A stretch of 64,000 nt of DNA from Nesterenkonia sandarakina (GTDB lineage Bacteria > Actinomycetota > Actinomycetes > Actinomycetales > Micrococcaceae). This document shows positions 44,856 through 60,337 of the stretch, piece after piece. How positions within the stretch are numbered: the stretch's first letter is position 1; every line of letters starts with the position of its first letter. The translations under genes were made by a program, and so were the position numbers. Under the pieces are notes generated by a model that was not told where the DNA came from, did no database searches, and was given only the letters and a program-made list of their open reading frames with translations. The stretch is taken from positions 1,674,001-1,738,000 of the forward strand of contig NZ_JACCFQ010000001.1 in NCBI RefSeq assembly GCF_013410215.1. Direction: 5' to 3'.

Positions 44856-46574
44856 ATGGCCGTCTTCCAGGATCCGCTGGTCGGACACCGTCACCTCTCC
44901 CAGGACGACGTGGAGTGGCTCCACGCCCTGGTGGGGGACTGGCAGCTGCTATCGGACCTGGCGTTCTCGGATGTGGTGCTGTGGTTCCCGCACACCGAGG
45001 AGGGGTTCCTCTCCGCCGCCGAGCGCTCCTTCATCGCGCTGGCCCAGGCTCGGCCATCGACCACGCAGACCCTGATCCACCGGGATGTGGTCGGGGATCG
45101 GATCCGCGCGGATCTGAAACCGATGGTGGAGCGCGCCTGGACCTCCCAGGTGGAGACGAACTCCTCGGATCAGGGGCAGCCCTCGCCGGGGCGGATGCGG
45201 GTGCAGGCGATCCCGCTGCTGCACCGGGGGCGCACGGTCGGGGTGATCACGCTGCACTTCGCGGTGGCCGCGATGCGCAGCCCCTCCCGGCTGGAGCTGA
45301 CCTACCGGCGCTGCGCCGAGGACCTGCTGGTGATGGTGGCGGAGGGTCGCTGGCCCGATGTCAGCCAGGAGTTCACCGGCTACGGGGGCGCCCCGCGGGT
45401 GGGGGACGGGCTGCTGCGCCTGGACGCCGAGGGCCGGATCACCTTCGCCTCGCCCAATGCGGTCTCGGCGCTGCTGCGACTGGGCGTCTCGGACACCCTG
45501 GAAGGACGTTCTCTGGCCGGCATCGGGTCCGAGCTGCAGCGCGCCACCGGGGTGGCGGTGGATGAGTCGCAGCCGATGATGCTCACCGGACGCCGTGCCA
45601 TGCGCGCCGAGCTGGAGGCCCACGGCGCGGCTGTGACGCTGCGCTCGATCCCGCTCTACCGGGCCTCCCGCCAGGGCTTTAGATCGCTGGCCGGTGCCGG
45701 ACCGGTCGCTGGCGGCGCTGAACGTCGGGGCTCCCGGTCCGAGAAGGGCGGCGAACGTTTCGCCGCGCTGGTGCTCTGCCGTGATGTCACTGAGCTGCGC
45801 CGCCGGGACAAGCAGCTGATGAGCAAGGACGCCACGATCAAGGAGATCCATCATCGGGTGAAGAACAATCTGCAGACCGTCTCGGCGCTGCTGCGGATGC
45901 AGTCGCGCCGGATGGACTCCCAGGAGGGTCGGGAGGGGCTGCGCCGGGCGATGCGCCGGGTGGAGACCATCGCGATGGTCCACGATTCGCTCTCCAAGGG
46001 TCTGGAGGAGACGGTCGACGTCGATGAGCTGATGCGCCGTCAGCTGCACCTGGCTGCGGAGATGGCCCAGTCGGATCGGCAGGTGATCACGGCGCTGCAC
46101 GGCAGCTTCGGGCAGCTGCCGCCGGACATGGTCACCCCGCTGGCGCTGGTGATCACCGAGATCGTCGCCAACGCGGTGGAGCACGGCTTCGGCCCGGATC
46201 CGGCGCATCGCGAGCTGCATGTCAGCATGAGCGTGCAGCGGCACGCCGACGCGGCGGGGCGTCAGCGCCTGGAGCTGGAGCTCACCGACGACGGCGTGGG
46301 GCTGCCCGAGCAGGAGTGGGAGCCCGGTCTCGGGCTGCAGATCGTGCGCACCCTGGTCCGAGGAGAGCTCTCGGGCTCCATCGAGTGGGAGAGCGCCGGC
46401 GGCCCCTCGGGCGAGGCGGCGGGCACAGAAACTACTGCCGGCACAGAAAAGTCTGCCGGCACAGAAAAGTCTGCCGGCACAGAAAAGTCTGCCGGCACAG
46501 AAACGGCGAGGAGCGGGACACGGGTGAAGCTGCGTGCACCGATCCTCGCCGCGACGATCAACAGCGGAGGGTGA
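44856..46574 (+). CDS. pdtaS: PdtaS-type cytosolic sensor histidine kinase
   Basis: A 572-residue soluble kinase, orthologous by layout to PdtaS (Rv3220c). In mycobacteria PdtaS signals to PdtaR, an ANTAR-type antiterminator. It has an N-terminal GAF domain (about 1-155), a PAS domain (about 180-290), the HisKA_2 helix KEIHHRVKNNLQTVSALLRM with His332/His333 and an HWE/HATPase domain (VITEIVANAVEHGF, ELTDDGVGLPEQE, GLGLQIVRTLV). A tandem GTEKSA insertion interrupts the last strands of the ATPase domain (about 523-552). RBS GAGGAGCCCTGAT precedes the ATG. It is convergent with the whiB gene, three bases apart, as in the Rv3219/Rv3220c pair. No pdtaR is in the window. Confidence 0.92.
   Translation: MAVFQDPLVGHRHLSQDDVEWLHALVGDWQLLSDLAFSDVVLWFPHTEEGFLSAAERSFIALAQARPSTTQTLIHRDVVGDRIRADLKPMVERAWTSQVETNSSDQGQPSPGRMRVQAIPLLHRGRTVGVITLHFAVAAMRSPSRLELTYRRCAEDLLVMVAEGRWPDVSQEFTGYGGAPRVGDGLLRLDAEGRITFASPNAVSALLRLGVSDTLEGRSLAGIGSELQRATGVAVDESQPMMLTGRRAMRAELEAHGAAVTLRSIPLYRASRQGFRSLAGAGPVAGGAERRGSRSEKGGERFAALVLCRDVTELRRRDKQLMSKDATIKEIHHRVKNNLQTVSALLRMQSRRMDSQEGREGLRRAMRRVETIAMVHDSLSKGLEETVDVDELMRRQLHLAAEMAQSDRQVITALHGSFGQLPPDMVTPLALVITEIVANAVEHGFGPDPAHRELHVSMSVQRHADAAGRQRLELELTDDGVGLPEQEWEPGLGLQIVRTLVRGELSGSIEWESAGGPSGEAAGTETTAGTEKSAGTEKSAGTEKSAGTETARSGTRVKLRAPILAATINSGG
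46422..46511 (+). repeat. 18-bp tandem repeat encoding GTEKSA in pdtaS
   Basis: Five 18-base units begin GGCACAGAAA at 46422, 46440, 46458, 46476 and 46494. The second, third and fourth are identical (GGCACAGAAAAGTCTGCC) and the outer two diverge. They encode (GTEKSA)n between the GSIEWES strand and the final GTRVKL strand of the ATPase domain. The frame is preserved. Confidence 0.92.
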
Positions 46575-47256: not shown

Positions 47257-47709
47257 ATGGCCTCAGATGACTCCGTCCAGCCGGACTTCAACGCCCCGCG
47301 TCCGCCGCGGCGCTTCGTCCAGGCCCGGCCCCGCCCGCTCACCGTGTGGGTGCTGTTCCTGATCCTCTTCGTCCAGGGACTCGCCGTGGCCTTCAGCACT
47401 GTCGCCGGGGCGGTGGCCTCACCGCCTGAGGTCCTCGACACCGCCGGTCAGATCGCTCTGGTGGTGCTCTATGTGCTCTTCGGCCTGATCCTGGTGCTGC
47501 TCGGGTTCCGGATCTTCCTCGGCGCCCAGGGAGCACGCACCCCCGCGATGGTGCTTCAGCTGCTGATCGTGGTGCTCTCCTTCAGCTTCTTCTCCTCGGG
47601 TGCGGGTCCGATCGGGCTGGCCTTCCTGGTGCCCGCCGCGGTGGCGCTGGTGCTGCTGTTCATCCGGCCCACTCAGGTCTGGCTCAGCGAAGCAGATCCC
47701 CAGGAGTGA
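47257..47709 (+). CDS. Small polytopic membrane protein of unknown function
   Basis: A 150-residue protein with a polar N-terminus of about 25 residues followed by three or four hydrophobic helices (LTVWVLFLILFVQGLAVAF, IALVVLYVLFGLILVLLGF, VLQLLIVVLSFSFFS, GLAFLVPAAVALVLLFI). It resembles the small uncharacterised membrane proteins common next to housekeeping genes in Micrococcaceae; no domain name is supported. The ATG at 47257 is preferred over longer upstream frames. Its last 26 bases overlap the convergent phosphotransferase gene. Confidence 0.7.
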   Translation: MASDDSVQPDFNAPRPPRRFVQARPRPLTVWVLFLILFVQGLAVAFSTVAGAVASPPEVLDTAGQIALVVLYVLFGLILVLLGFRIFLGAQGARTPAMVLQLLIVVLSFSFFSSGAGPIGLAFLVPAAVALVLLFIRPTQVWLSEADPQE

Positions 47710-48958
47710 GCCCGCGCAGCAGCCCCTCAGCACAGCGCAGGTAGTGCCCCTGCTGTGCGGGGCTGCGCGAGCCCGGCAGCAGCGAGAGCAGCACCGCGGC
47801 GGTGCGCGCATGGAGATCGTCTGGATCCGTGTCCGGAAGGCAGGCGGCGTGGAAGCGCCCGGCGAAATCCGGGACCCCGGCGTATCCCTCGGCGTCGAAG
47901 CTGGGCAACGCGAAGAGGTGCCCCAGCATGGTGGCGAGATCGTCCACGCGATGCCCCGGCCCCACCGTGTCGGCGTCGATGAGCGCGCTGGGATGCTCTG
48001 CCGCCGCGTCCAGGAACAGGTTCGCCGGGTGAAAGTCCCCGTGCGTGGGCACGAGCGGTCCGGGGGGCTGATGCAGCGCTGCCTCAATGCCGGCACGCAG
48101 CTGCTGGACGCGTCGCCGATCGGCCCCCACCGCGATCGCAGACTCGCCGAGGCCCGCGAGTCGGTGCGCCGGCGGCACCCGGGCCGGGAGGTCCAGTGCC
48201 TCCGGCCGCAGGGTCTCCAGCGCCGAGATCGCCACGCGTGGATTCAGCGGGTGCACGTGGGCGGGTGGGCAGGCCCGGTGCAGATGCTCGGTCAGGGGGA
48301 GCCCAGGCGCCTGGTCCAGGATCAGGATGCCGTCCCCGGCATCGGCGATGGCCGGAATCAGCCCCGAGCAGCGGTGGCGCTGCAGCAGCTGCGCCGCTCG
48401 GGAGGGTCGGACCACCTTGAGGTAGACCACCCGCTGGCCCCGCCGGGAGGAGACCACGGCCCGGTAGACGGCACGGCGCAGCGGGCGCAGCACCAGCATC
48501 TGCAGCTCCTGCACGGTGGACTGCTCGCCCAGGGCCCGGCTGAGCCGGACCTGAAGTTCGGTGGGCGCTGAGCGCTCGGCAGGTTTCTCGCCGTCTGGCT
48601 CAACGAGCAGCAGGCCGGGCAGCTCGGGATCCACCGGATGCACCCAGAGGTGCAGCGTGCCCTGCGGTGACTCTGCCCGCACCGCGCCCATGCCCGCGCG
48701 CTGCTCAGCGCTCAGCTCCACGGTGCTGGCGATCATGGTCAGCTCCGTCAGCCCCGGCAGTCCTCCCGGGGCGCTGCCCCGCTCTGCCGGGGCGCACTGC
48801 ACACGGTAACGGGCGGAGACCTCTGCTCCGGGCCGCGCGTAGACCTGTTCCAATTCCCAGGTGCGCAGCAGCATCCCGGAGGCGCGGAGAGACTGCCGCA
48901 GCAGGGTCTCGGTCTGGGGTCCGCGCAGCACGGTGAGCAGCTCGTTGCGCGTGTCCAT
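47684..48958 (-). CDS. APH-fold phosphotransferase (third of three in the cluster)
   Basis: A 424-residue kinase-like protein of the aminoglycoside phosphotransferase superfamily. The catalytic loop THGDFHPANLFLDA is at about residues 303-316 and the metal-binding LIDADTVG at about 326-333. The N-terminal lobe (about 90-190) has RVVYLKVVRPSRAAQLLQR, a candidate nucleotide-binding Lys region shared with the 51973-53040 protein (IKVVRPGRAAAIL). The ATG at 48958 has GGAGG eight bases upstream. Family members phosphorylate sugars, amino alcohols or antibiotics; the substrate is unknown. It is divergent from the histidine kinase gene (84-base gap), so it may be controlled with that system. Confidence 0.85.
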   Translation of the reverse strand: MDTRNELLTVLRGPQTETLLRQSLRASGMLLRTWELEQVYARPGAEVSARYRVQCAPAERGSAPGGLPGLTELTMIASTVELSAEQRAGMGAVRAESPQGTLHLWVHPVDPELPGLLLVEPDGEKPAERSAPTELQVRLSRALGEQSTVQELQMLVLRPLRRAVYRAVVSSRRGQRVVYLKVVRPSRAAQLLQRHRCSGLIPAIADAGDGILILDQAPGLPLTEHLHRACPPAHVHPLNPRVAISALETLRPEALDLPARVPPAHRLAGLGESAIAVGADRRRVQQLRAGIEAALHQPPGPLVPTHGDFHPANLFLDAAAEHPSALIDADTVGPGHRVDDLATMLGHLFALPSFDAEGYAGVPDFAGRFHAACLPDTDPDDLHARTAAVLLSLLPGSRSPAQQGHYLRCAEGLLRGLTPGDLLR

Positions 48959-49042
48959 CCCGTCATCCTCCCGCATCCAGATGAAAGAACTCTCATGGCC
49001 GGTGTGCCCGAACCCGGCGGCTTCAGTGAGAAACTGGCGACT

Positions 49043-50704
49043 ATGAACGAGCAGAGCCGTCCCGAGCACGCCGGGACGCGAAGCCCCGACGGGGCTCCCG
49101 GAGCGCGGCGCTCCTGGGCCCGCAGACCGGGTCCGCTCAACGTGCGCGCACGGATCCTCGCAGCCGTCGTCGGACTCGCCGCCCTCGCCTTGGCGGCGGC
49201 CGGGTACACCGCGTTCGCGATCCAGCAGGCACAGGTCGAGGGTCGGATCGACGCCGAGCTGGCCGCCGACGCGGAGCAGTTCCGGGTCCTGCACGAGGTC
49301 GGTGTGGACCCCGGGACCGGTGAGCCGTTCAGCTCGCCGGCGGAACTGGTGCGCACCGCGATGGAGCGGATCATCCCGACGCGCAATGAGGGGATCCTCG
49401 GCCTGGTCGATGCTGAGGTCGCGTACACATCCCCGGTGACCCCGGTGCGGCTCGAGGAGGATCAGCAGCTGCTTCGTGCACTGGCTCCGCACGCGGTGGC
49501 TCAGCGTGCCAGCGTGGTCACGATCGACACGGAGCTCACCAGCTACCGCGCGGCCATCGTTCCGGTCCACGGCAGCGTCTCGGAGCCGCCGGGGGAGTCG
49601 ACGTCGACCGATCCCGCAGCCGAGGCAGAGCAGGTCGGGGCACTGGTGATGGCTTATGACATCACGGCGGAGAAGCGCGTGTTCTCCGAGGGGTTTGTGA
49701 TCTATGCCGCCGTGGCGCTGCTCTCGCTCGGGGTGGTGGCCATCGTCGGGGGTGTGATCGCGGGTCGGCTGCTGCATCCGGTGGGCGTGCTCGCGTCTTC
49801 GGCGCGGCAGATCGGGCGCGAGGACCTCTCCGAGCGGATCCCGGTCACCGGTAACGATGATCTCTCCGAGATGACCAAATCTGTCAACCAGATGCTGGAT
49901 CGGCTGGAGGATTCGTTCACTGCGCAGGAGAGGCTGATCCACGACGTCAGCCATGAGCTGCGCACCCCGCTGACCATCATCCGGGGCCACCTCGAGGTCC
50001 TCGACGTTGGAGACCGCGTCGACGTGACTGCCACCCGAGAGCTGACCCTTGATGAGCTGACGCGGATGAACCGCGTGATCGACGATCTCACCACACTGGC
50101 TCAGGCCGGCCAGCCAGGCTTCGTGCAGCGCGCCGAGACCGATATAGGCACCCTGACCGATGAGGTCTACGACAAGGCGCTGGCGCTCGGCGACCGGCGG
50201 TGGATCGTGGAGAGCCGCGCCGAGGGAACCGCCTGGGTGGACCGGGAGCGGATCACCCAGGCGTGGCTGCAGCTCGCGGCGAACGCGGTCAAGTTCTCAC
50301 CGCCCGGCTCGGTGATCGCCCTGGGCACTGAACTGGCTGCGCACCAGCTGCGCCTCTTCGTGCGCGATCAGGGAGAGGGGATCGACCCCGCGGACCAGGA
50401 ACGCATCTTCCAACGTTTCGGGCGCACCGACCCGTCCAAACCAGGATCAGGGCTGGGGCTTCCGATCGTCGAGGCGATCGCCCGGGCGCATGGCGGAGTC
50501 ATCGAGCTGGAGTCCTCGCCGGGGGCGGGTTCCCGCTTCACGCTGGTGCTTCCCCGGATGGACGCGGCCGGGGCAGATCTGGGCACCGATGGCACGGACG
50601 TTCTCGGGACCGATCAGGACCCCGGCGCCGATCCGAGAGACGCCGACCCGAAAGATGCCGACCCGAGAGACGCTCACCCGAAAGAGGAAGATCGCCGCAC
50701 ATGA
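49043..50704 (+). CDS. Membrane sensor histidine kinase (HAMP, HisKA)
   Basis: A 553-residue sensor kinase from the ATG at 49043. Helix at about 37-58, extracytoplasmic sensor domain (about 60-215), second helix at about 217-242, HAMP (RLLHPVGVLASSARQIGRED), His304 in HDVSHELRTPLTII, and an ATPase domain with N-box LQLAANAVKFS, DQGEGIDP and GSGLGLPIVEAIARAHGG. The C-terminus (about 515-553) is a disordered tail of DP(R/K)DA repeats. The response-regulator gene overlaps it by four bases, kinase first, which is less usual than regulator first. It probably governs the secreted-protein gene and the glycosyltransferase operon (shared operator arrays). Confidence 0.92.
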   Translation: MNEQSRPEHAGTRSPDGAPGARRSWARRPGPLNVRARILAAVVGLAALALAAAGYTAFAIQQAQVEGRIDAELAADAEQFRVLHEVGVDPGTGEPFSSPAELVRTAMERIIPTRNEGILGLVDAEVAYTSPVTPVRLEEDQQLLRALAPHAVAQRASVVTIDTELTSYRAAIVPVHGSVSEPPGESTSTDPAAEAEQVGALVMAYDITAEKRVFSEGFVIYAAVALLSLGVVAIVGGVIAGRLLHPVGVLASSARQIGREDLSERIPVTGNDDLSEMTKSVNQMLDRLEDSFTAQERLIHDVSHELRTPLTIIRGHLEVLDVGDRVDVTATRELTLDELTRMNRVIDDLTTLAQAGQPGFVQRAETDIGTLTDEVYDKALALGDRRWIVESRAEGTAWVDRERITQAWLQLAANAVKFSPPGSVIALGTELAAHQLRLFVRDQGEGIDPADQERIFQRFGRTDPSKPGSGLGLPIVEAIARAHGGVIELESSPGAGSRFTLVLPRMDAAGADLGTDGTDVLGTDQDPGADPRDADPKDADPRDAHPKEEDRRT

Positions 50705-51360
50705 CCCAGATCCTGTTGATCGAAGACGAAGCCCGCATTGCGTCCTTCGTGGAGAAGGGACTCCGCGCGGCGGGGTACGCGGTCCTGCACGGAGCGACGG
50801 CGGCCGAGGGATTCGAGCTCGCACTGCATCATTCCGTGGACCTCACCGTGCTGGACCTGGGGCTGCCCGATGAGGACGGGCTCCGGCTGCTCGGCAGGCT
50901 GCGCGGCCAGGGCTTCCGAGCCCCGGTGATCATTCTCACCGCGCGCAGCACCTCGGCCGATACCGTCGCCGGACTCGAGTCCGGGGCCGATGACTACATG
51001 GCCAAGCCGTTCAGCATCGATGAGCTGCTGGCCAGGATCAGACTGCGGCTGCGCGGCGGGTCGGCCGAGGAGCCGACGACGTTGAGCGCGGGCCGTCTCA
51101 TCCTGGACCTGCATGCCCGTCAGGTGACCGTGGGAGAGAAGCAGCACGACCTGTCCTCACGGGAGTTCGCGCTGATCGAGACCTTCATGCGGCATCCCGG
51201 ACAGGTGCTCTCCAGGGAGCAGCTGCTGGAGCGGGTCTGGGGCTACAGCTTTGACCCGGGCTCAAACCTGGTGGATGTCTATGTCCGCTATCTGCGCGCC
51301 AAGATCGGCGCCGAGGCGATCCGCACGGTCCGTGGCGTCGGGTATCGTCTCGAGATCTGA
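50701..51360 (+). CDS. OmpR-family response regulator
   Basis: A 219-residue response regulator. Receiver: IEDEARIASFVEKGLRAAGY, phosphoacceptor Asp52 in TVLDLGLPDEDG, Lys in MAKPFSIDELLARI. Winged helix: LSSREFALIETFMRHPGQVL, REQLLERVWGY, VDVYVRYLRAKIGAEAIRTV. The ATGA overlap with the kinase gene indicates coupling. OmpR-family proteins bind tandem direct repeats with about 11-base spacing. Such arrays sit upstream of the adjacent secreted-protein gene (51939-51976) and of the glycosyltransferase operon (60256-60337), making this the prime candidate for the protein that binds them. Confidence 0.93.
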   Translation: MTQILLIEDEARIASFVEKGLRAAGYAVLHGATAAEGFELALHHSVDLTVLDLGLPDEDGLRLLGRLRGQGFRAPVIILTARSTSADTVAGLESGADDYMAKPFSIDELLARIRLRLRGGSAEEPTTLSAGRLILDLHARQVTVGEKQHDLSSREFALIETFMRHPGQVLSREQLLERVWGYSFDPGSNLVDVYVRYLRAKIGAEAIRTVRGVGYRLEI

Positions 51361-51423: not shown

Positions 51424-51867
51424 TCAGCTCTCCGCTGAGGGGGCCGACCAGCTCTGGGCAGAGGCCGGGCTGGACCAGGACTGTGCAGACTCCAAGGGGG
51501 CCTGGTACTGCGAGGGTGGTGCCGGGGCGACCGTGGTGGGCCCAGAGGTGGGCGCAGGCTCGGGCTGCTCGGGAGATGCGGGGCTCGGTGCCGTGGCCGC
51601 GGTGACCGGGCTCGGCCACGCGGTGGCACTGGCGCTGCTGCTCGGGCTGGCGGTGCCGCCGGTCTCGGCCTGCTCGCTCTCGGAGTCGCTGGGACTGGCG
51701 TAGATGGTCGGGGTGGCGCTGGGGGCGCCGCTGGGCGAGGACACCTCCATGGCGGGGCCCAGGTCTTGACCCTGGGCCGGTCCACTCAGCCCTGCCACCG
51801 CTGCCGTGCCACCGAGGGCAACGATGCTCAGCGCTCCGGTGATGATCCATCCGCTCTGCCTGGGCAT
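51424..51867 (-). CDS. Small secreted Ser/Pro/Ala-rich protein
   Basis: A 147-residue protein from the ATG at 51867. It has a signal-type helix (about 8-30: IITGALSIVALGGTAAVAGL) and then a low-complexity Ser/Pro/Ala/Thr/Gln region with no recognised domain; the end carries SAQSWSSPASAQSWSAPSAES. It looks like a secreted or wall-embedded spacer protein. The gene is convergent with the response regulator and downstream of a strong TAGAAT -10 (51910-51905, minus strand) preceded by the three-repeat operator, so it is likely a direct target of the two-component system. Its function is unknown; it is not a PepSY protein. Confidence 0.72.
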   Translation of the reverse strand: MPRQSGWIITGALSIVALGGTAAVAGLSGPAQGQDLGPAMEVSSPSGAPSATPTIYASPSDSESEQAETGGTASPSSSASATAWPSPVTAATAPSPASPEQPEPAPTSGPTTVAPAPPSQYQAPLESAQSWSSPASAQSWSAPSAES

Positions 51868-51938
51868 GGTCCCGCATCCTCTCGCATCCGCGTCGTGCTC
51901 TCTGATTCTAGATCCTGCTTCCATGGTGGACCGTCCAA

Positions 51939-51976
51939 GTGAGGTCACCGTGAGACCTGGATGAGAAGATTCTCAT
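51939..51976 (-). promoter_or_regulatory. 11-bp-spaced direct-repeat operator upstream of the secreted-protein gene
   Basis: On the minus strand, in the direction of transcription, hexamers TCTCAT (51966-51961), TCTCAC (51955-51950) and CCTCAC (51944-51939) start exactly 11 bases apart. One inverted TCTCAT follows on the plus strand (51971-51976). A TAGAAT -10-like hexamer lies at 51910-51905, and the gene starts at 51867. The order TCTCAT, TCTCAY, CCTCAC recurs upstream of the glycosyltransferase operon. The spacing is characteristic of OmpR/PhoB-type binding sites. Confidence 0.75.
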
Positions 51977-53040
51977 CTGAATCCGGGCTGGGCGGCGACC
52001 TCGCGCAGCTGGGCCGCCACCTTGCCGGAACCGGGACGCACCGCATAGACGCAGCCCAGCCGCAGGATCGCACCGCGTTCGTAGACCGCCAGTCGCCGGG
52101 CCGGAACCTCGAGCCGGCTCGCGGCGGCGTCCACCGCGGTGATCACGGTCTGTGCTTCCTGGGGTCCCCACCCTCCCTGCAGCGCTCGCAGGCGTGCGTG
52201 GGCGCGCAGGTTCCCCAGATCCAGGGCAGCATCGGCACGGCAGGCGGTGTCCACATCGAGCAGGCCTGGTCCCGCCTGCGGGCTCCAGAGCAGCTGCTTG
52301 TCGTGGAGGTCCCGGTGGGCCGGTCGCACCGGCGCCTCCGGCAGCTGCTGCAGCTGGGCTGTCACCTCCTGGACCAGGCGTTCCAGTGGTTCCGAGCGAT
52401 CAAGGTAGGGGGTCACCAGGTGTGCCCACCGGTGCAGCACCTTGGCCTCATCCTGTGCCGTGTGCTGTGGAATCACCGCTTCCGCGGCGAGACCGCGATC
52501 TCCACCCGGGGGTGTGGTCAGCGCGGGCTGCTCGGGGAGCACTGCATGGACCCAGGCGTCGAGCACCTCGGTCCAGGCCCGTCTCCAGTGCGCTGCGGTG
52601 AACTGCGAGGGGTCGTGCAGGCTTCTTCCCTGCAATGCTGCGAAGGTCACGGTGGAGTCGTCCTGGGCGAGCACCTCGGGGGTGCGGAAGGACGCGGTGA
52701 ACGCGCCGGCTCGGCGGATGCCCTCCAGGATCGCCGCAGCCCGCCCGGGGCGCACCACCTTGATGTAGCTCGTACCATCTCGGACGACCGCGCGCTTCCC
52801 GGGCCGGTGAGAGACCACGGTGCCGGAGGAGGCGACAGGTTCAAGCCCGGGAAGCCGACGGTCGGTTCCGACAGGCTGCAGCTGGGCTCCGGTGTGGTCA
52901 TAGAACCCCGCCCGACGCTGACCGTCCTGTTCACATTCGATCCCGAGCCGATCTTTATCGGGCACCGGCCAGGCTCGGGTCACCCGGATCCGGGATCCCG
53001 GGACGGGGAGGAACTCGGGGGGAAGGGGCATGGGGGTCAT
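51973..53040 (-). CDS. APH-fold phosphotransferase, last gene of the glycosyltransferase/ABC operon
   Basis: A 355-residue aminoglycoside-phosphotransferase-superfamily protein. The catalytic loop PAHRDLHDKQLLW is at about residues 237-250, with His-Arg-Asp in place of the more common His-Gly-Asp. The metal-binding LLDVDTACRADAALDLGNL follows at about 258-276. The N-terminal part has VVRDGTSYIKVVRPGRAAA, probably the nucleotide-binding Lys region, close to that of the 47684-48958 protein. The start overlaps the upstream kinase gene by four bases. Substrate unknown; context suggests a sugar-containing product or precursor. Confidence 0.83.
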   Translation of the reverse strand: MTPMPLPPEFLPVPGSRIRVTRAWPVPDKDRLGIECEQDGQRRAGFYDHTGAQLQPVGTDRRLPGLEPVASSGTVVSHRPGKRAVVRDGTSYIKVVRPGRAAAILEGIRRAGAFTASFRTPEVLAQDDSTVTFAALQGRSLHDPSQFTAAHWRRAWTEVLDAWVHAVLPEQPALTTPPGGDRGLAAEAVIPQHTAQDEAKVLHRWAHLVTPYLDRSEPLERLVQEVTAQLQQLPEAPVRPAHRDLHDKQLLWSPQAGPGLLDVDTACRADAALDLGNLRAHARLRALQGGWGPQEAQTVITAVDAAASRLEVPARRLAVYERGAILRLGCVYAVRPGSGKVAAQLREVAAQPGFR

Positions 53041-54236
53041 CTCTGAAGCGCCTCCTCACCAAGTGCCAGCGTCCGCTCCATCGCGGCAGGCCAGTGCGCC
53101 TCCCGGAGCCGAAACGCTTCCGGTGCGGCGTGCAGCTGCGCGAAAGCCTCCCAGGCCGCCGCTCGGCGCAGGTCAGCGTTGGTCTGAGTGAGATAGCCGG
53201 TCAGGAACTCCTCGACGAGCTCCGGGTGTCCCAGCCGTCGGCAGGCGGCGGCCCAGCTGCCCAGGTCCCGCATCGGGTCTCCGATGGTGGACCGGTCCAG
53301 ATCGATGAGCCGGATCTTGTGACTTCCTGGAGTCGCGAGGACCACCTGGTCGGGTGAGAGATCGCCGTGGAGCTCGCTGCTCGTGCCCGGCCCGAGCCGA
53401 TCGAATCGCTGCTGGATCGTCTGTGCGAGTCGGTCAGCGCGAGGTCCCAGCCACGGCGCCACCAGAGCGACGGCGCTTGTCCCCGTGCCTGACCGACTCG
53501 GCACAGGAGAGCTGTGCGGAGCGGAGGTGAGCCGGTGCAGCTCGCCCACGGCGGCGCCAGCTGTGGCCGCTGCCGGGCCATGCGGGTGGGTGCGCAGATC
53601 CGCCCATCCCCACAGCGGGGCGCTGAGCGCGGTGCCTCGTCCTCCCACTGGGGTGCTGCGCACCAGGGGCAGCCCCAGCTCCCGCCACCGCTGCGCGGCA
53701 GCCAGGGCGGCGGCGGTGGTCTTCTTTGCGGCGACCCGGATGACCTTCTCTCCGTGTCCGGGCCCTGCCGGTGGCACCACGGCCACCACCCGACGGCGCG
53801 GATTCTGGCGCAGGAACGTCCACGGGCGGTTCGCTTCGGACTCCGCGTCGAGCGCTGCCCGCGCCTCGGTGAGGTCCTTGGCCAAGACCGGGTCGGCCCA
53901 GACGCTCCCACTGAAGAGGTAGGGCCGCCGCGCTGCGTGGACGAGGAAGGGCACCTGGTTCATCTCCGCTCGAACGCTGTCCTGGGCACGCTGCCTGGCC
54001 TTGCTGAGCTTGTCCGCATCCCGGGTCAGCATCGCCCAGCCGGGCTCGGAGTCTGCGCCGGTGAAACCGGCGACCACGGAATGTCCGGGCTTGATGCGGA
54101 CCCGGGAGATGGTTACCGAGCGGCCGAGTCGGGCGGAGAGCTCGCCGGAGTCCAGCAGTGTGCGCGCCCCGCTGAGCTGGGCGGACCTGGCGGCGGCCGC
54201 GTCGGCCTCGGTCCACTCTGGATGTGCGGCGTTCAT
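53037..54236 (-). CDS. APH-fold phosphotransferase, fifth gene of the glycosyltransferase/ABC operon
   Basis: A 399-residue APH-superfamily protein. Catalytic loop SELHGDLSPDQVVLAT at about residues 285-300 and metal-binding RLIDLDRSTIGDPMRDLGSW at about 306-325; the rest is alpha-helical. The N-terminal region contains VTISRVRIKPGHSVVAGFTG. It differs clearly from the other two APH-type proteins here, so the three are not recent copies. The ATG at 54236 overlaps the ABC exporter stop by four bases; the stop overlaps the next kinase gene by four. Two kinases back to back in one operon suggest successive or combined phosphorylation, which is an inference. Confidence 0.83.
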   Translation of the reverse strand: MNAAHPEWTEADAAAARSAQLSGARTLLDSGELSARLGRSVTISRVRIKPGHSVVAGFTGADSEPGWAMLTRDADKLSKARQRAQDSVRAEMNQVPFLVHAARRPYLFSGSVWADPVLAKDLTEARAALDAESEANRPWTFLRQNPRRRVVAVVPPAGPGHGEKVIRVAAKKTTAAALAAAQRWRELGLPLVRSTPVGGRGTALSAPLWGWADLRTHPHGPAAATAGAAVGELHRLTSAPHSSPVPSRSGTGTSAVALVAPWLGPRADRLAQTIQQRFDRLGPGTSSELHGDLSPDQVVLATPGSHKIRLIDLDRSTIGDPMRDLGSWAAACRRLGHPELVEEFLTGYLTQTNADLRRAAAWEAFAQLHAAPEAFRLREAHWPAAMERTLALGEEALQR

Positions 54237-56185
54237 CGACTCACCCACTCGGTCTGCTCGGATTCCCTCGGTGCCGGTGCCGGTGCGGGTGCCGGTGCCG
54301 GTGCCGATGCCGATGCCGGTGTGGCTGCGGGTGCTGCCGAGCCCAGCCGACCTTCTCCGCCGGATTCTGCAGCACCTCGCTGGGTGGCTGCCCACCGGGC
54401 CAGCTGCGAATGCGGATCTGCCAGCAGCTCCTCCGGGCTGCCGTCCTCCAGGATGCGCCCCTCCTGCAGCCACAGCACTCGGTCCAATCCCTGGATCATG
54501 CTGAGGTCGTGCGTGATGGCCACCGTGGTGCGTCCGCGGGTCAGTTCTCGGATGGAGTTCTCCACGACCCCGCGGGAGGCCGGGTCCAGCCCCGTGGTGG
54601 GTTCATCGAGCAGCACGATCGGAGCGTCGCGGACCAGGGCCCGGGCGATCGCCACGCGCTGGCGCTGACCGCCGGAGAGCGTGTCACCGCGGTTGCCCAG
54701 CTCGGTCTCATACCCCTCTGGCAGGGCCATGATGAAGTCGTGGGCACCGGCCCGCCGGGCGGCCTGCTCCACCTCGGCGTCGGAGGCGTCCTGCCGTCCG
54801 TATCTGATGTTCTCCCGGACCGAGGTGCTGAAGAGCACCGATTCCTGGAGCAGGACCGCGATGTTGCGCCGGAGATCTGCTCGGGTGACGTTGCGTGCGG
54901 AGCATCCGTCGACCAGCACCGAGCCGGAGTCCGGATCGGCGAGCCGCAGCAGGTACCCGGCCAGGGTGGACTTCCCTGCGCCGGAGGGCCCCAGCAGACC
55001 CACTCGCTGACCCGGTGGGATGGACAGGTTCAGCTTCTCGAACAGCGGTGCTCCACGGTGGTCACAGGAGCTGACGTTCCAGAAGGTGAGCTCTCCGGAG
55101 GCGCGAGACAGGGGCAGTGGGCGGTCCGGGTCACGAATCTCGATCTCCTCGTCGAGCAGATCGGCGATGCGTTCCCCGGAGGCGGTGGCGCGAGCGATCC
55201 GGCCGGTGTACTTCGCCATATCCCGCAGCGGCTTCATCGCGATCTTCAGGTACATCAGGAACAGCACCATGTCTCCGGGCGTCATGGTCCCCTGCAGGAC
55301 CTGCCATCCACCGAGCCCCAGGACGACGGCGGTGCTGATCCCGACCAGAAGGTCGGTGGAGCGTTCAAGCCGGGCCGCCAGCTTGCGGGCCTTGATGCCG
55401 GCCTTGAGCGCCTTGGCGTTTCCTGCGGCGAAGCCTGAGGCCACGGTCTCCTCCAGGCCGTAGGACTGCACCACCCGGATCGCGCCCAGTGCCTCGGCCG
55501 CGTCGCCGACGAGTTGGCCTTCACCCTTGCGGGTCGAGCGCGAGGCGGCGGTGATCTTGGGACTCAACACATGGCTGAAGAGCAGGTATCCGGAGCCGGT
55601 GAGCAGCACGATGATCGCCAGAAGCGGGTTGAGGATCAGCACCACGATCAGCAGCGTGAGCAGCGTCAGCAGGTTCCCGACCATCGGCAGCCCGGCGGTG
55701 ACTGCGACCTCCTGAAGCCGTCCCATGTCCCCGACCAGTCGCTGCGAGGTGTCACCGATGGAGGCCCGGGAGTGATAGCGCAGCGAGAGCGCCTGGATAT
55801 GGTCGAAGACCCGGGTCCGCAGCCGTGCCGCGACCTTCACGCCGGTCTTCGCGAACGCGATCGTGGAGGCGTAGCTGCAGAAGGCGCGTCCGCCCACGAT
55901 CAGCGCCAGAGAAAAGGCCCAGAAGGTGAGCATTCCCTCGACGTTGTGGCTGGAGTCGATGGTCTCGTCGATCTGCGCCCCCAGCGCCTCGGTGACGGCG
56001 TCCACCGCGAACTTCACCGGCCACGGCTCCAGCACCCGGAAGGCGACGTCGCCGAGCAGGGCCAGCAGCCCGAGGGTGATGAGCATCTTGTGCTCGCCCA
56101 GGTGGGGCAGCACCATGCCAAGGGTGCGGCGCAGTCCCTGGCGGTGCAGGGTGCGCGAGGACTTGGCCTCGGAGCGTCGACTCAT
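54233..56185 (-). CDS. ABC-type exporter, fused membrane and ATPase domains
   Basis: A 650-residue half-transporter of the type IV (MsbA-like) exporter class, working as a homodimer. Membrane domain with six helices (about 38-320: LITLGLLALLGDVAFRVLEP, ALIVGGRAFCSYASTI, MVLFLMYLKIAMKPLRD) and ATPase domain with Walker A LLGPSGAGKST, signature LSGGQRQRVAIARAL, Walker B IVLLDEPTTGLDP and the His switch in AITHDLS. The C-terminus adds an Ala/Pro/Ser repeat tail of about 35 residues. Four-base overlaps join it to the glycosyltransferase before it and the kinase after it. It probably exports the product of the operon; cargo unknown. Confidence 0.9.
   Translation of the reverse strand: MSRRSEAKSSRTLHRQGLRRTLGMVLPHLGEHKMLITLGLLALLGDVAFRVLEPWPVKFAVDAVTEALGAQIDETIDSSHNVEGMLTFWAFSLALIVGGRAFCSYASTIAFAKTGVKVAARLRTRVFDHIQALSLRYHSRASIGDTSQRLVGDMGRLQEVAVTAGLPMVGNLLTLLTLLIVVLILNPLLAIIVLLTGSGYLLFSHVLSPKITAASRSTRKGEGQLVGDAAEALGAIRVVQSYGLEETVASGFAAGNAKALKAGIKARKLAARLERSTDLLVGISTAVVLGLGGWQVLQGTMTPGDMVLFLMYLKIAMKPLRDMAKYTGRIARATASGERIADLLDEEIEIRDPDRPLPLSRASGELTFWNVSSCDHRGAPLFEKLNLSIPPGQRVGLLGPSGAGKSTLAGYLLRLADPDSGSVLVDGCSARNVTRADLRRNIAVLLQESVLFSTSVRENIRYGRQDASDAEVEQAARRAGAHDFIMALPEGYETELGNRGDTLSGGQRQRVAIARALVRDAPIVLLDEPTTGLDPASRGVVENSIRELTRGRTTVAITHDLSMIQGLDRVLWLQEGRILEDGSPEELLADPHSQLARWAATQRGAAESGGEGRLGSAAPAATPASASAPAPAPAPAPAPRESEQTEWVSR
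54270..54325 (-). repeat. Six-base repeat encoding the Ala/Pro tail of the ABC exporter
   Basis: The plus strand shows repeated GGTGCC / GATGCC units (about eight) which on the coding strand read as Ala-Pro and Ala-Ser codons. It lies just before the stop of the exporter gene and encodes a disordered tail. Confidence 0.75.
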
Positions 56186-57462
56186 CGTGAGCTCACCTCC
56201 CGGGCTGGAACGGCCGCGAGCACACTCTGTGCACGCTGCACCCAGCTGTGCTCAGCCTCCACGCGTCTGCGACCGGCTGCTCCCAGGTCCGCCCGAAGGG
56301 CTGGGTCCTGGATGAGTCGGGTGAGTGCCCGGGCCAGCGCTTCGGAATCCCCAGGGGTCACCGTCACCCCGGCCGCGGGTACTTCCTCCTCGGCCCGGGT
56401 GCCACCTGGGATCCCGGTCCGCTCTGCGGTCGACGGGCGGCCGTGCAGCAGCGCTGGAAGCTCACCCAGCGCCGAGGCCACCACGGGGATCCCTGCGGCG
56501 AGATACTCGTAGACCTTCAAGGGGGAGAAATAGTGTCCGGCCTGGGCCGCGGGAGCCGGATAGGGCGCCGTCGCGATGTCCAGGTCGGCCAGCAGCTGGG
56601 GCACCTGCGCCGGTGAGACCGGCCCGGTGAACTCCACTCGTTCACCGATGCCGAGCTCTGTGGCGAGGGATTCCAGATGCTCCTGCTCGGGGCCGCCGCC
56701 GATGATGCGCAGTCCGGGCTGCGGTCCTGAACCGGGCTGCGTCTGAAGGACGCGGGCGAAGGCACGCAGCAGCAGGTCGGTGCCGTGCCAGGGCTTCAGC
56801 GTGCCGAGGAAGCCGATGATCACGCGGTTCCGCGAGGCACGAGGTCCTGGGGTGAACCGTGCCGGGTCGACCCCATTGGGGGTGACCCGCACCCGGGGCG
56901 ACCGGTCACCAGCGGTGGTGTCGGTACCCAGGAGCTCGAGTGCCCATTCGGCCACCGGGGCAGACACGCAGGAGAGCAGGTCGGCTCGGGAGAAGGACTC
57001 CCGAGTGGCGCGTGCGGCGGTGGGCTCATCGTGGAGGCTGCGGTGCAGCCTCTGCTCGCTCAGCAGCGGGGAGTTGACCTCGATCACCAGTGGGGCGACG
57101 CCGCGCCGTCGGGCTGTGGCACCAGCGGTGGAGAACAGCGAATACCGCTCATAGAGGAGATCGAAGTCTCCCTCGGCGGCCAGCTCGGCCATCCTGGCGC
57201 TGGCGCGCGCCACCGCGGCTTCTCGGGCCGCCGCTGTCTTGGCTCCGGAGACCGGCACCACGAAGACCGGCAGGTCGGCGAGGTCTGAAGGAACCGAGGC
57301 CGACGTCGGGTCATCGTGCTTGTCCCCACGTTTGGTGCAGAACACGGTGACCTCGTGCCCCAGGGCTCGGAACGCCCGGATCATCTCCTGGGCGTGCACG
57401 CTCGCGCCCTTGGAGCCGAAGATGCCGATGCCTGGATCCGCGAGCAGGTAGCCGATCCTCAT
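56182..57462 (-). CDS. Family 4-type glycosyltransferase (GT-B fold)
   Basis: A 426-residue retaining-type glycosyltransferase. N-terminal acceptor domain: RIGYLLADPGIGIFGSKGAS, VHAQEMIRAFRALGHEVTVF. C-terminal donor domain: IIGFLGTLKPWHGTDLLLRA, FTGPVSPAQVPQLLADLDIA, and a GT4-type end SPLKVYEYLAAGIPVVAS with the Glu that contacts the nucleotide sugar. No membrane helix. Donor and acceptor are unknown. It is the third gene of the operon; four-base overlaps on both sides. Confidence 0.88.
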   Translation of the reverse strand: MRIGYLLADPGIGIFGSKGASVHAQEMIRAFRALGHEVTVFCTKRGDKHDDPTSASVPSDLADLPVFVVPVSGAKTAAAREAAVARASARMAELAAEGDFDLLYERYSLFSTAGATARRRGVAPLVIEVNSPLLSEQRLHRSLHDEPTAARATRESFSRADLLSCVSAPVAEWALELLGTDTTAGDRSPRVRVTPNGVDPARFTPGPRASRNRVIIGFLGTLKPWHGTDLLLRAFARVLQTQPGSGPQPGLRIIGGGPEQEHLESLATELGIGERVEFTGPVSPAQVPQLLADLDIATAPYPAPAAQAGHYFSPLKVYEYLAAGIPVVASALGELPALLHGRPSTAERTGIPGGTRAEEEVPAAGVTVTPGDSEALARALTRLIQDPALRADLGAAGRRRVEAEHSWVQRAQSVLAAVPAREVSSR

Positions 57463-58871
57463 GCCGAGACCTGCACTTTCGCGAACCGGTCCTGCGACGC
57501 CGGGGCGTGCGGATCCTGGATCAGCGCCTGCAGGCGACGAGCCTGAAGAGCTGAGTCGAAGCTGTGCTCGATCATGGCGCGTGCCGCGTCAAGCACGCTG
57601 ACCCTCGCCGGGTCAGCTGCGACGGCCTCGGCCGCCGCCTCGGCCACCGCCTGCGTGAGCGCGTCGAGGTCACCCGAGGGCACCAGCCATCCGGTCTCAC
57701 CGCTGCGCACGACCTCGCCCACGGCGGTCACCTCGGCAGCCACGCAGCGGATGCCGCGCGCCATGGCCTCCAGCAGCACAGTGGGCAGCCCGTCGGCGTT
57801 GCCGTCGGACCCGATGACGAAGGGAGCCACGAAGACGTCGTGGGAGCCCAGCAGCTCTCTCACCTCCTGCTGGGTGCAGGGCCCCAGCAGCCGCACCCAG
57901 CCCTGCAGGCCGGCGTCGTCGATCTGGTGCTGGAGCTCATCCTTCAGGGGGCCGTCCCCGGCGATGTCAGCCTGGACCTCAAGGCCCTGTGCCCGCAGCC
58001 GGGAGACCGCGTCGATGAGCAGCCTGAATCCCTTCTTCTCGACCAGCCGACCGATCCCGAGCAGCCGGACCGGACCCTGCGGATCGGCGGAGTCTGCTGC
58101 CGGGAGCGTCCCGCGCGTCGGGGCGTACGGGAAGCGGGAGAGTTCCAGCCCATTGCGCACCAGGTGCAGCCGGGTGGTCGCGGCGGGGAAGCGGGAGCGC
58201 AGATGATCGAGGTTATAGCCGGAGATCGTGATCGCGTGATGCGCCTGTGCCAGCTTCGACTCCAGCTCCTGCTCATCGACGTCTTCATGGAAGATGTCCT
58301 TGGCGTGCGCGGTGAAGGAGTAGGGCAGACCGCCGATCTGCCCGGCCAGCCGCGCCACCGTGGTGGCGATCGAGGCGAAGTGCGCATGCAGGTGGGTCAC
58401 CCCGGCCTGCTGTGCCGCGTGGGCCAGCGCCACGGCCTGCTGCGCATCGTCGTGACCGGCCGCGAGCAGCTCCGGGAGACTGCGCTGCATGCCCTCCCGC
58501 AGTGATGGGGACGCCGCGGCGAGCCCGAGCTGCGCCCAGAGCTTCGCGGAGGTGGAGCCGCGCGGCACGTGGATCACAGGGGCCTTGACCCGCGCCAGCT
58601 CCGGGTGGAACCGGGCATCGGTGCTCGGGCGCAGCGAGAAGATCACGATCTCCTCGCCTGCCGCCTCGCGCGCCAGGATCTCCGAGACGATGAAGGTCTC
58701 GGAGAATCGGGGATACATCTTCAGCACGTATCCGATGACCTGCCTCGGCGGTGCCGCAGACCCGTCTGGCGTCGGGATCCTCGGCATCCCCGGGTGGATC
58801 TCGGGGAGGTGCTCGGCGGAACCCTCGAGCGGGTTCCGCGGGGAGTCGGCGATGGTGTTCTCAGCGGACAT
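57459..58871 (-). CDS. WcaL-like family 4 glycosyltransferase
   Basis: A 470-residue GT-B enzyme resembling colanic-acid-type WcaL proteins: YVLKMYPRFSETFIVSEIL, VTHLHAHFASIATTVARLAG, YSFTAHAKDIFHEDVDEQEL, a donor domain with LLGIGRLVEKKGFRLLIDAV and the GT4 motif DGLPTVLLEAMARGIRCVA. The ATG at 58871 is used; earlier in-frame codons run through the previous gene and are not protein-like. It overlaps the upstream glycosyltransferase gene by 11 bases and the next by four. Acceptor and donor sugars are not identifiable. Confidence 0.88.
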   Translation of the reverse strand: MSAENTIADSPRNPLEGSAEHLPEIHPGMPRIPTPDGSAAPPRQVIGYVLKMYPRFSETFIVSEILAREAAGEEIVIFSLRPSTDARFHPELARVKAPVIHVPRGSTSAKLWAQLGLAAASPSLREGMQRSLPELLAAGHDDAQQAVALAHAAQQAGVTHLHAHFASIATTVARLAGQIGGLPYSFTAHAKDIFHEDVDEQELESKLAQAHHAITISGYNLDHLRSRFPAATTRLHLVRNGLELSRFPYAPTRGTLPAADSADPQGPVRLLGIGRLVEKKGFRLLIDAVSRLRAQGLEVQADIAGDGPLKDELQHQIDDAGLQGWVRLLGPCTQQEVRELLGSHDVFVAPFVIGSDGNADGLPTVLLEAMARGIRCVAAEVTAVGEVVRSGETGWLVPSGDLDALTQAVAEAAAEAVAADPARVSVLDAARAMIEHSFDSALQARRLQALIQDPHAPASQDRFAKVQVSA

Positions 58872-60231
58872 GGGAATCAAACCTCGTTTCGGCGGCTGAT
58901 GGTGAGAGGGGAGTGGCGGCGCAGCGCGCCGCGGCGTGTGCTGGGCTCGGATATGGTGGGGCGGCCGTGAGGACGTGGTCCTGGCTGGACGCCCATTCGG
59001 GGCCGCGCACCGGATCAGGACGTTCGGCGGGGGAGCCGGCTCTCGCGCACCTCCGAGCGGCGGGACCCAGCCCGAGCTCCGCGGCGGCGAGGCCACCGAT
59101 CCTGGCCAGCCCGTCGAGGTCCACCGCGCTGCGGTCGCAGCGCCGGGTCACGGCGTCGGCGAGCCAGCGGCTCAAGGCCTGCGCGGTGAGCTCTTCGGCT
59201 GGGAGGGTGTCCACGGCGCCCACAGCGGCCAGCGCTCGAGCCCGGCGCGGCTGTTCGGCGCGACGGGTGGCACGGGGCACCAGCAGGGCCGGCGTGGTGG
59301 TGGCCATGATCTCGGCCGTGGAGTTGTACCCGGCCATGGACACGACGGCGGCCGCCTCGCGGACGAGCTGTGGCACATGCGGCGCCAGACGAGTGACCTG
59401 GACGCTGCCGGAGTCGGGCGAGGCGGCCGCGGCGCGCTGCACCCGGTCATGGTCTGCCGGCGGCATCTGCGGTCCGGTGAGGATGATGTGTCGGTGACCG
59501 GCCGGGACCTGCGCCCGGGCGGCCGCCAGGGCCAGCCGGCCGCCGTCGGAGCCGCCGCCGACCATGGAGAGCACGTAGGGCTTCGGTGCCCGGACGCTGG
59601 CGTCGGTGAGCTCATCGGTCGGGCGGCCGTGGCTGAGATAGCCGGTGAACCTGGTCCGTGTGGCCAGCGGCGCCGGGATCTCGCCGCTGCTGATCGGGTT
59701 GTAGACCGAGGGGTCTCCGTAGACCCACACCGCGTGGTAGAACGCAGCGGCGGCCGAGGCCCCGCCGATCCGGTCCCATTCCTTGCGGGCGGCGGCGGGG
59801 GTGTCCAGCACCTCACGCATGCCCAGCACGCAGCGAGTGCCCTGGGAGTGCAGCCAGCGCAGGGAGTCCAGCAGCTCACCGCCCACCCCGAACGGGTGTC
59901 GGTCGGCGATGAAGAGATCCGGGTCCATCGCCTTGATCGCGGCGGCGGCGGTGGAGCTGCGCAGCGCCGAGAGCCGTTCGTTGCTCACATCCAGGCTCCG
60001 CGACGCGTAGCCCTGCGGAGTGCTGGTGAACCCGGGGAGCACCAGCCAGTCCCAGCCCTCCGGCAGCGAGTCGGCGGTCGCATCGGGGTGTCCGGCGATC
60101 AGCAGTCCGCGCACCGGCTGGCCGGTCAGTCGCGGCAGATCAGCCGCGAGGGCGTGGGCCAGGGCCCGGTTGCGGCGGGCGTGGCCCAGGCCGACCGAGT
60201 CGTGGGAGTAGAGAACGGCTGTGATGCTCAT
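58861..60231 (-). CDS. MurG-like (GT28-type) glycosyltransferase, first gene of the operon
   Basis: A 456-residue predicted glycosyltransferase of the COG4671/MurG-like type. The N-terminus VLYSHDSVGLGHARRNRALA carries the glycine-rich GHxRR loop; IADRHPFGVGGELLDSLRWL, YVLSMVGGGSDGGRLALAAA (GGG donor loop) and VVSMAGYNSTAEIMATTTPA (nucleotide-sugar site) follow. The last 70 residues are a low-complexity tail. It is the promoter-proximal gene; on the minus strand TATGGT (60242-60237) ends five bases before the ATG, downstream of the repeat array. Its activity (donor, acceptor) is unknown. Confidence 0.85.
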   Translation of the reverse strand: MSITAVLYSHDSVGLGHARRNRALAHALAADLPRLTGQPVRGLLIAGHPDATADSLPEGWDWLVLPGFTSTPQGYASRSLDVSNERLSALRSSTAAAAIKAMDPDLFIADRHPFGVGGELLDSLRWLHSQGTRCVLGMREVLDTPAAARKEWDRIGGASAAAAFYHAVWVYGDPSVYNPISSGEIPAPLATRTRFTGYLSHGRPTDELTDASVRAPKPYVLSMVGGGSDGGRLALAAARAQVPAGHRHIILTGPQMPPADHDRVQRAAAASPDSGSVQVTRLAPHVPQLVREAAAVVSMAGYNSTAEIMATTTPALLVPRATRRAEQPRRARALAAVGAVDTLPAEELTAQALSRWLADAVTRRCDRSAVDLDGLARIGGLAAAELGLGPAARRCARAGSPAERPDPVRGPEWASSQDHVLTAAPPYPSPAHAAARCAATPLSPSAAETRFDSHVR

Positions 60232-60255
60232 GGAAGACCATAGTGGTCACCCCAT

Positions 60256-60337
60256 GTGAGGCAGCGATGAGAACACTATGAGAGTCTCCGCCGAGATCTC
60301 TCATCCTGGTCTCATCAAGTTCTCATGAAACCCTCAG
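60256..60337 (-). promoter_or_regulatory. Two opposed 11-bp-spaced repeat arrays upstream of the glycosyltransferase operon
   Basis: On the minus strand TCTCAT (60283-60278), TCTCAT (60272-60267) and CCTCAC (60261-60256) start 11 bases apart, ending 13 bases before a TATGGT -10-like hexamer (60242-60237), where a -35 would be. On the plus strand a second array points the other way: TCTCAT at 60299, 60310 and 60321 and CCTCAG at 60332, again 11 apart. The last overlaps the DUF1844 stop codon. The hexamer order matches the array at 51939-51966. The geometry fits activation by an OmpR-family regulator, probably that at 50701-51360. Confidence 0.78.

Follow-up and report, generated by a model that had tools for sequence, protein, structure and literature searches.

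The window, a stretch of 64,000 nucleotides from Nesterenkonia sandarakina, contains hexamers repeated every 11 bp before a glycosyltransferase operon and again before the gene of a small secreted protein, which lies beside the genes of a two-component system (Table 1). Which protein reads these repeats, and with what effect on the genes behind them? The reading that we consider very probable is that the adjacent response regulator, of the OmpR/PhoB type, uses the arrays as operators and would activate three neighbouring promoters. This type of operator is already known for the OmpR/PhoB family. A literature search, judged by titles and the beginnings of abstracts, recovered no description of this circuit, of the composite operator or of the secreted partner.

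Repeat arrays of the window and the operon behind them

The two minus-strand triplets (60283-60256 and 51966-51939) and the opposed array are present base for base as the earlier note had given them. Array 1 lies 24 bp from the operon start; the hexamers of the opposed array start at 60299, 60310, 60321 and 60332 of the plus strand, the fourth being CCTCAG and not CCTCAC. In the 3.0-Mb high-GC genome of the organism, the exact triplet is confined to the promoters of the operon and of the secreted-protein gene. With up to two mismatches, the pattern TCTCAY-N5-TCTCAY-N5-CCTCAC gave four matches in this genome, all within the three arrays of the window, and its reversed control gave none. The looser pair YCTCAY-N5-YCTCAY gave nine matches genome-wide, six of them in the window arrays; its reversed control gave a single match. 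In the window, the strict triplet TCTCAY-TCTCAY-YCTCAY is present three times, versus zero times in 100 first-order Markov shuffles.

Eleven further places of this genome carry a head-to-head or a direct pair. They were rejected as extra targets: nine are situated within predicted coding frames, and the two others are a non-coding direct pair without explanation (L205) and an intergenic palindrome, GTGAGAGCGCTCTCAT, before a lipoprotein-like gene (L197:1501-1516; G000:C1:1032424). This palindrome presumably resembles a LacI-type operator rather than a site of the window regulator.

Table 1. Features of the window, with positions counted from its first letter
Feature	Position	Strand	Remark
Operator array 1 (predicted)	60256..60283	-	TCTCAT-N5-TCTCAT-N5-CCTCAC, upstream of the glycosyltransferase operon
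Opposed upstream array, four hexamers	60299..60337	+	TCTCAT x3 and CCTCAG; 15 bp from array 1
-10-like CACTAT	60240..60245	-	exactly 10 bp past array 1; the GT1 ATG follows after 8 bp
GT1, GT28-type glycosyltransferase	58861..60231	-	first operon gene; Pfam
GT4-type glycosyltransferase	57459..58868	-	best NCBIfam match EpsE, below cut-off
GT4-type glycosyltransferase	56182..57462	-	Pfam
MsbA-like ABC exporter	54233..56185	-	ABC_membrane and ABC_tran
Phosphotransferase, APH family	53037..54236	-	Pfam
APH-like kinase	51973..53040	-	last operon gene; HRDLHDKQ...DVDTA motifs
Head-to-head pair ATGAGA-N4-TCTCAT	51961..51976	.	upstream edge of array 2
Operator array 2 (predicted)	51939..51966	-	TCTCAT-N5-TCTCAC-N5-CCTCAC, upstream of the small secreted-protein gene
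-10-like CACCAT	51923..51928	-	exactly 10 bp after array 2
Small secreted Ser/Thr/Pro-rich protein	51424..51868	-	DLGPAMEV motif after signal/anchor segment
OmpR/PhoB-type response regulator	50701..51360	+	proposed binder; Response_reg and Trans_reg_C
Sensor histidine kinase	48995..50704	+	HAMP, HisKA, HATPase_c
Head-to-head half-operator ATGAAA-N4-TCTCAT	48981..48996	+	kinase-regulator promoter
Divergent phosphotransferase, APH family	47684..48958	-	shares the kinase promoter region

The operon comprises six genes on the minus strand (51973-60231), and its product would be an exported envelope glycan. Its last gene had no Pfam match; in a sequence-profile search of the PDB, this kinase recovered aminoglycoside phosphotransferases with a best E value of 2.3e-5. 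The earlier note had linked the regulator to a sugar operon 9 kb away. The link itself is supported, but not the distance: the 9 kb that separate the two promoters are taken up by the operon, whose 3' end adjoins the regulator. Elsewhere in the genus, GT1 contains one in-frame TGA in G001 and G014 and is split at contig ends in G012 (L012, L022, L024/L034). The window also encodes a PdtaS-type histidine kinase (44856-46574; GAF_PdtaS, HisKA_2), which adjoins a WhiB gene and displays a tandem EKSAGT-like repeat in its C-terminus.

Kinase-regulator pair and distribution of the arrays

The regulator has the receiver and the winged helix of the OmpR/PhoB class (PF00072, 9.9e-24; PF00486, 1.3e-26), and the tandem repeats of about 11 bp that go with this class are found in the target promoters. 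None of the best 25 of its 92 NCBIfam matches reaches its own cut-off. PmrA/BasR (NF007928, the best among these 25, 187.9 versus 330 bits), MtrA (NF040689, 181.7 versus 300 bits), PhoB (TIGR02154, 178.8 versus 296.2 bits) and CseB (NF041733, 177.7 versus 350 bits) were rejected on these values, and PhoB also on the hexamer, which is TCTCAY and not a GTTCAC-type repeat. In the PDB, BasR/PmrA, PrrA and mycobacterial PhoP are among its best matches. The stretch SN[LVI]VDVY[VI], which we take to be the recognition helix, is conserved in 78 of the 86 regulators with at least 49.5% identity; this conservation fits a common operator without proving one. As the stretch is also present in five of the ten regulators below 49.5%, it does not single out this group.

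Other actinobacterial regulators of the OmpR/PhoB family, namely mycobacterial PhoP (PMC4832192), Microlunatus PolR and Streptomyces PhoP (GTTCACnnnnnGTTCaC; PMC6754071), are likewise described with direct repeats spaced by 11 bp. The PolR hexamer is GTTCAC whereas that of the window is TCTCAY, and the targets reported for PolR and Streptomyces PhoP concern phosphate and polyphosphate, unlike the glycosyltransferase operon (PMC6754071). MprA of Corynebacterium glutamicum and CutR of Streptomyces are also actinobacterial two-component regulators, theirs being assigned to envelope or secretion stress. They were rejected since their motifs, compared in published form only (TKTTAAGAAM, PMC12113857; TAWATAAA, PMC12802291), differ from that of the window, as does the TCG-rich motif given for Dietzia MtrA (PMC9599347). 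The Brevibacterium loci carry the variant TCTCAT-N5-TCTTAA-N5-CCTTAA, whose unit TCTTAA resembles part of the C. glutamicum MprA motif; this is a lead only.

Upstream of the kinase gene, which perhaps starts at ATG 49043, the half-operator ATGARA-N4-TCTCAT is present in 13 of the 14 loci printed, the window included, the exception being L057 with ATGAAG. The window version of this promoter contains one hexamer pair only, and at offset 10 no -10 is clearly recognizable. The site was detected in 24 of 76 kinase 5' regions of 1.4 kb, duplicate loci being left in; in a control of 2000 random windows, from which true sites had not been removed, it was detected in 183. This count supersedes an earlier scan of kinase promoters (14 of 81 with the site), where the starts were unreliable for distant kinases. 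The kinase and regulator genes are probably under the control of their own regulator.

The genus set was composed of 30 Nesterenkonia genomes, that of the window included, and co-occurrence was tabulated with and without four incomplete genomes. GT1 is present in 20 of the 30; the array pattern was found in 18 of these 20 and in none of the ten others. All 16 genomes with a regulator at least 79% identical also hold GT1 and the arrays, with an array directly before GT1 in each of them, and among the 14 without such a regulator two have arrays. The conservation of the arrays, on which the earlier note had let its proposal depend, is therefore complete (16/16) in the relatives that keep operon and regulator. 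Since the genus genomes are related, the P-values of these co-occurrences are indicative only. Among 19 GT1 promoters of the genus that were aligned, 15 have an array beginning at exactly -52 relative to the gene start (in L057 it is shifted by 1 bp), and the opposed arrays lie at the same 43-bp offset in G006, G008, G012, G015, G016, G018, G019, G021 and G027. Counterparts of array 2 were found in 11 further genus genomes; none was seen in G007, G008 and G029, and the contig of G015 ends before the corresponding position.

Four genomes of the genus depart from this arrangement in part. G002 and G020 have GT1 with only a shorter or weaker array, G003 has strong arrays and only a 54% regulator located 72 kb away, and G009 has arrays and GT1 fragments. 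A fifth, G028, contains a 55% regulator and neither GT1 nor arrays. In G009 and G003, a four-unit array also precedes a similar small lipoprotein gene, apart from operon and regulator (L059:6515-6553, L068:5683-5721).

Searched with one mismatch in 98 genomes, TCTCAY-N5-TCTCAY-N5-YCTCAY gave 73 matches, spread over 33 of them, and its reversed control three. An alignment scan with GT1 of 84,980 species genomes gave at least 537 confirmed stretches (two patterns may match one gene), from which 80 named actinobacterial operon loci were kept, several of them from genomes that are also in the preceding set. In the 250 bp before GT1 of these loci (20 kb), TCTCAY-N5-YCTCAY occurs 32 times in sense (27 loci) and seven times in antisense, versus four and three times (seven on both strands) in the other 1.56 Mb. 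Periods of 7-10 and 12-16 bp are absent in sense before GT1; a period of 17 occurs once and the harmonic of 22 occurs 16 times. A strict or looser three-unit array precedes GT1 in 41 of the 80 loci; in the 39 others, a weaker array, a pair or a head-to-head unit was found in 16 and no form in 23, which include Rothia and Corynebacterium loci. Of the 80 loci, 41 encode a regulator with at least 50% identity; its gene precedes GT1 in 25 (e.g. Brevibacterium, Serinicoccus, Kocuria and two Microbacterium) and follows it in 16 (e.g. Rathayibacter, Actinomyces and two other Microbacterium). In the remaining 39, none was present within the stretch fetched. In three Serinicoccus loci, the operon is followed by an array and the gene of a small acidic-tailed secreted protein, an arrangement like that of array 2 and its gene.

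Arrays also lie beside an orthologous regulator in genomes where GT1 was not detected (G039, G050, G052, G086, G058). In L075, L076 and L087 (with two mismatches in L087), the array beside the regulator lies before the gene of a small secreted protein that converges on the regulator gene; in L078 it adjoins the regulator in a genome where GT1 was not found. In L077 it precedes DUF4956 and VTC-domain genes, confirmed by Pfam. Such genes recall the accessory genes of Gram-positive Pel loci, in which DUF4956, polyphosphate polymerase and CotH-like genes are described beside an exopolysaccharide operon (PMC7112168), unlike the window target, which is an operon of glycosyltransferases, an ABC exporter and kinases. 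By analogy, the likeness supports an envelope-polymer theme and does not itself identify the product. Some arrays situated apart from operon and regulator (L059, L065, L067, L068, L069, L071, L073, L074) are possibly due to chance or belong to other targets. In two other genera, four-unit arrays precede secreted proteins with beta-solenoid-like matches (L065:5309-5347, bactofilin; L073:5732-5770, weak DUF4097), which are possible extra targets.

Another OmpR-type regulator of the same cell, for instance the 42% paralogue encoded elsewhere in the genome, might bind the arrays, the adjacent pair being a bystander. This could be accommodated by the genomes, as 94 of the 98 have a regulator match above the search threshold, the closest regulator of the GT1-bearing genomes G002, G003 and G020 is a 52-54% one located elsewhere, and G009 has none above 42%. 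We nevertheless find it improbable: a 42-43% paralogue exists in genomes devoid of arrays and GT1 (G004, G005, G010, G011, G013, G022, G024), in several families arrays are found next to the window-type regulator, and the genes of this regulator and its kinase have half-sites in front of them. The proposal of the earlier note that the adjacent regulator binds both promoters gains support from this comparative genomics, the regulator and the arrays co-occurring across families with or without GT1.

Promoter geometry and proposed mode of action

A hexamer nAnnnT is located 10 bp past the third repeat in 52 of 58 array-anchored promoters; of the other offsets between 0 and 25, none has it in more than 14. 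The 58 promoters (the GT1 promoter of the window, those of 36 named loci and 21 other sites) are all places where the scans had already found an array. Among the 36 named GT1 promoters, 30 have the hexamer at offset 10, for a background of 3.7%; the misses are one Tessaracoccus, one Brevibacterium and four Arthrobacter loci, in the last of which the GT1 promoters lack the A of the -10. In the 52 promoters the repeat block thus lies about one helical turn upstream of the -10, the place of a class II activator. In the window, the position of the -10-like box sets the transcription start at or next to the GT1 ATG, so that the GT1 mRNA is likely leaderless.

Most likely, phosphorylated regulator molecules occupy the three hexamers side by side along a single face of the helix, and the third repeat takes the place of a consensus -35. 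From this place, the bound regulator should recruit RNA polymerase by class II activation. Its targets in the genome would be the six-gene operon, the DLGP gene and probably the kinase-regulator genes. Binding, dependence on phosphorylation and activation are what we infer from the DNA. The regulator could also bind and repress, the occupied repeats covering the -35 region and blocking the polymerase: the repeats overlap the expected place of the -35, and CutR is described to repress from positions over the core promoter (PMC12802291). This opposite effect seems unlikely to us, since no consensus -35 was seen that the repeats could block, and the constant spacing of 10 bp is close to that of the activated PhoP promoters of Salmonella, which is 11-12 nt (PMC3335776).

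In the Salmonella promoters of architecture I, the PhoP box precedes the -10 by these 11-12 nt and its action there is orientation-dependent (PMC3335776). The promoters of architectures I and II resemble those of the window by a direct hexamer repeat with a 5-nt spacer near the -10. They differ in that the window has three repeats, TCTCAY instead of (T/G)GTTTA and 10 bp to the -10 (PMC3335776), together with one opposed hexamer separated by a constant gap of 4 bp, an actinobacterial regulator and other targets. The Salmonella gene ybjX has, as in the window, a second and reversed box upstream, which raises expression; its mutation is reported to reduce expression more than eightfold (PMC3335776). 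ArcA, also of the OmpR/PhoB family, binds units spaced by 11 bp centre to centre and often more than two of them: more than half of its sites have extra direct repeats, mostly with a spacing of 11 or 22 bp (PMC3798270). The ArcA sites are described without conserved location or orientation, whereas the arrays of the window type are nearly constant relative to the -10 (PMC3798270). From these two cases, tandem arrays with an opposed upstream block have a precedent.

The pair RTGAGR-N(g)-YCTCAY occurs before GT1 with g=4 in 28 loci and g=15 in 25 loci, and no other g between 0 and 20 was seen in more than one locus; both gaps are found in 14 loci, only g=4 in 14 and only g=15 in 11. Where both occur, g=15 is a consequence of the second direct repeat. 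The remaining locus DNA contains 14 such pairs at g=4, four at g=15 and up to six at other gaps. In the window, the gap is 15 at the operon promoter and 4 at the secreted-protein gene. At either gap, the opposed upstream hexamers probably load extra regulator and strengthen activation. The head-to-head hexamer at a fixed gap of 4 or 15 bp is new here. According to He et al., all known OmpR/PhoB sites are direct repeats (PMC4832192), and HP1043 is cited as a binder of inverted repeats (PMC3960148); the regular head-to-head half-site is for this latter reason a variant and not a new principle.

The opposed array was considered as part of a divergent promoter, and this was rejected, as DUF1844 is co-directional with the operon and no -10-like hexamer was seen by eye in the window sequence 10 bp beyond this array. 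The pair ATGAGA-N4-TCTCAT might also be the palindromic operator of another factor, of the LacI or GntR type for example, given the hexamer palindrome at array 2 and a similar one at an unrelated promoter (L197). The hexamer of this palindrome is however the unit of the direct repeats, and its gap shifts by exactly one repeat of 11 bp, which makes a separate factor improbable. That the repeats are fortuitous or a functionless family of mobile repeats, as isolated matches elsewhere in other genomes could suggest, is contradicted by their rarity genome-wide, their conservation across families and their fixed geometry to the gene start and the -10, and can practically be dismissed. Activation by the adjacent regulator stays the preferred reading.

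The secreted protein and the proposed circuit

The gene of the small secreted protein runs convergent to that of the regulator. Its product had no Pfam or NCBIfam match at 0.001. The GTG start at 51948 falls inside array 2, and ATG 51868 is the start common to the relatives. The genus proteins encoded behind array 2 have in common an anchor segment, a DLGPAMEV-like motif and a Ser/Thr/Pro-rich stem. The general plan consists of an anchor, the motif DLGPxhxV, a Ser/Thr/Pro-rich stem and a tail that is poly-Asp or SAPSA; the tail is poly-Asp in most matches from other families and SAPSA-like in most Nesterenkonia, L057 having poly-Asp.

Of 86 loci with the regulator, 26 contain ORFs of this plan at a distance of up to 4 kb from it, or 23 of 82 without the four duplicate loci, whose regulator proteins are identical (L120=G021, L116=G027, L121=G023, L135=G082). 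Only one occurs elsewhere in the 688 kb of the same loci and two in the 765 kb of 40 loci devoid of the regulator. In the 60 other regulator loci, no ORF with the DLGP motif was present within 4 kb. Thirteen loci of other families were chosen because a two-repeat site precedes the kinase. In each of them, a small secreted protein with this plan is the product of the first suitable ORF that follows the site, and seven of the 13 have nAnnnT 10 bp after the second repeat. In G006, array and DLGP gene are duplicated in tandem, each gene with its own array (L041:11493-11520, L041:12025-12052). The locus L093 (G033:C3) has both kinds of DLGP protein, the SAPSA-tailed one convergent with the regulator and the acidic-tailed one before the kinase.

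The recurrence of a small secreted DLGP protein beside the kinase-regulator pair is new here. From its position alone, a sensory or feedback role is proposed for this protein. We put forward, as a tentative view that may well prove wrong, a widespread envelope-sensing circuit of actinobacteria formed by the kinase, the regulator and the DLGP protein as external probe or feedback element of the kinase, in which the regulator would drive the DLGP gene, its own genes and the conserved glycan-export operon via the composite operator of head-to-head and tandem units.

The arrays provide a testable operator code, TCTCAY every 11 bp with a -10 box 10 bp on, for a two-component system present in many Micrococcales and their neighbours. 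They link this system to an operon of glycosyltransferases, an exporter and kinases and to a secreted partner, and this opens both the polymer and the signal to experiment.
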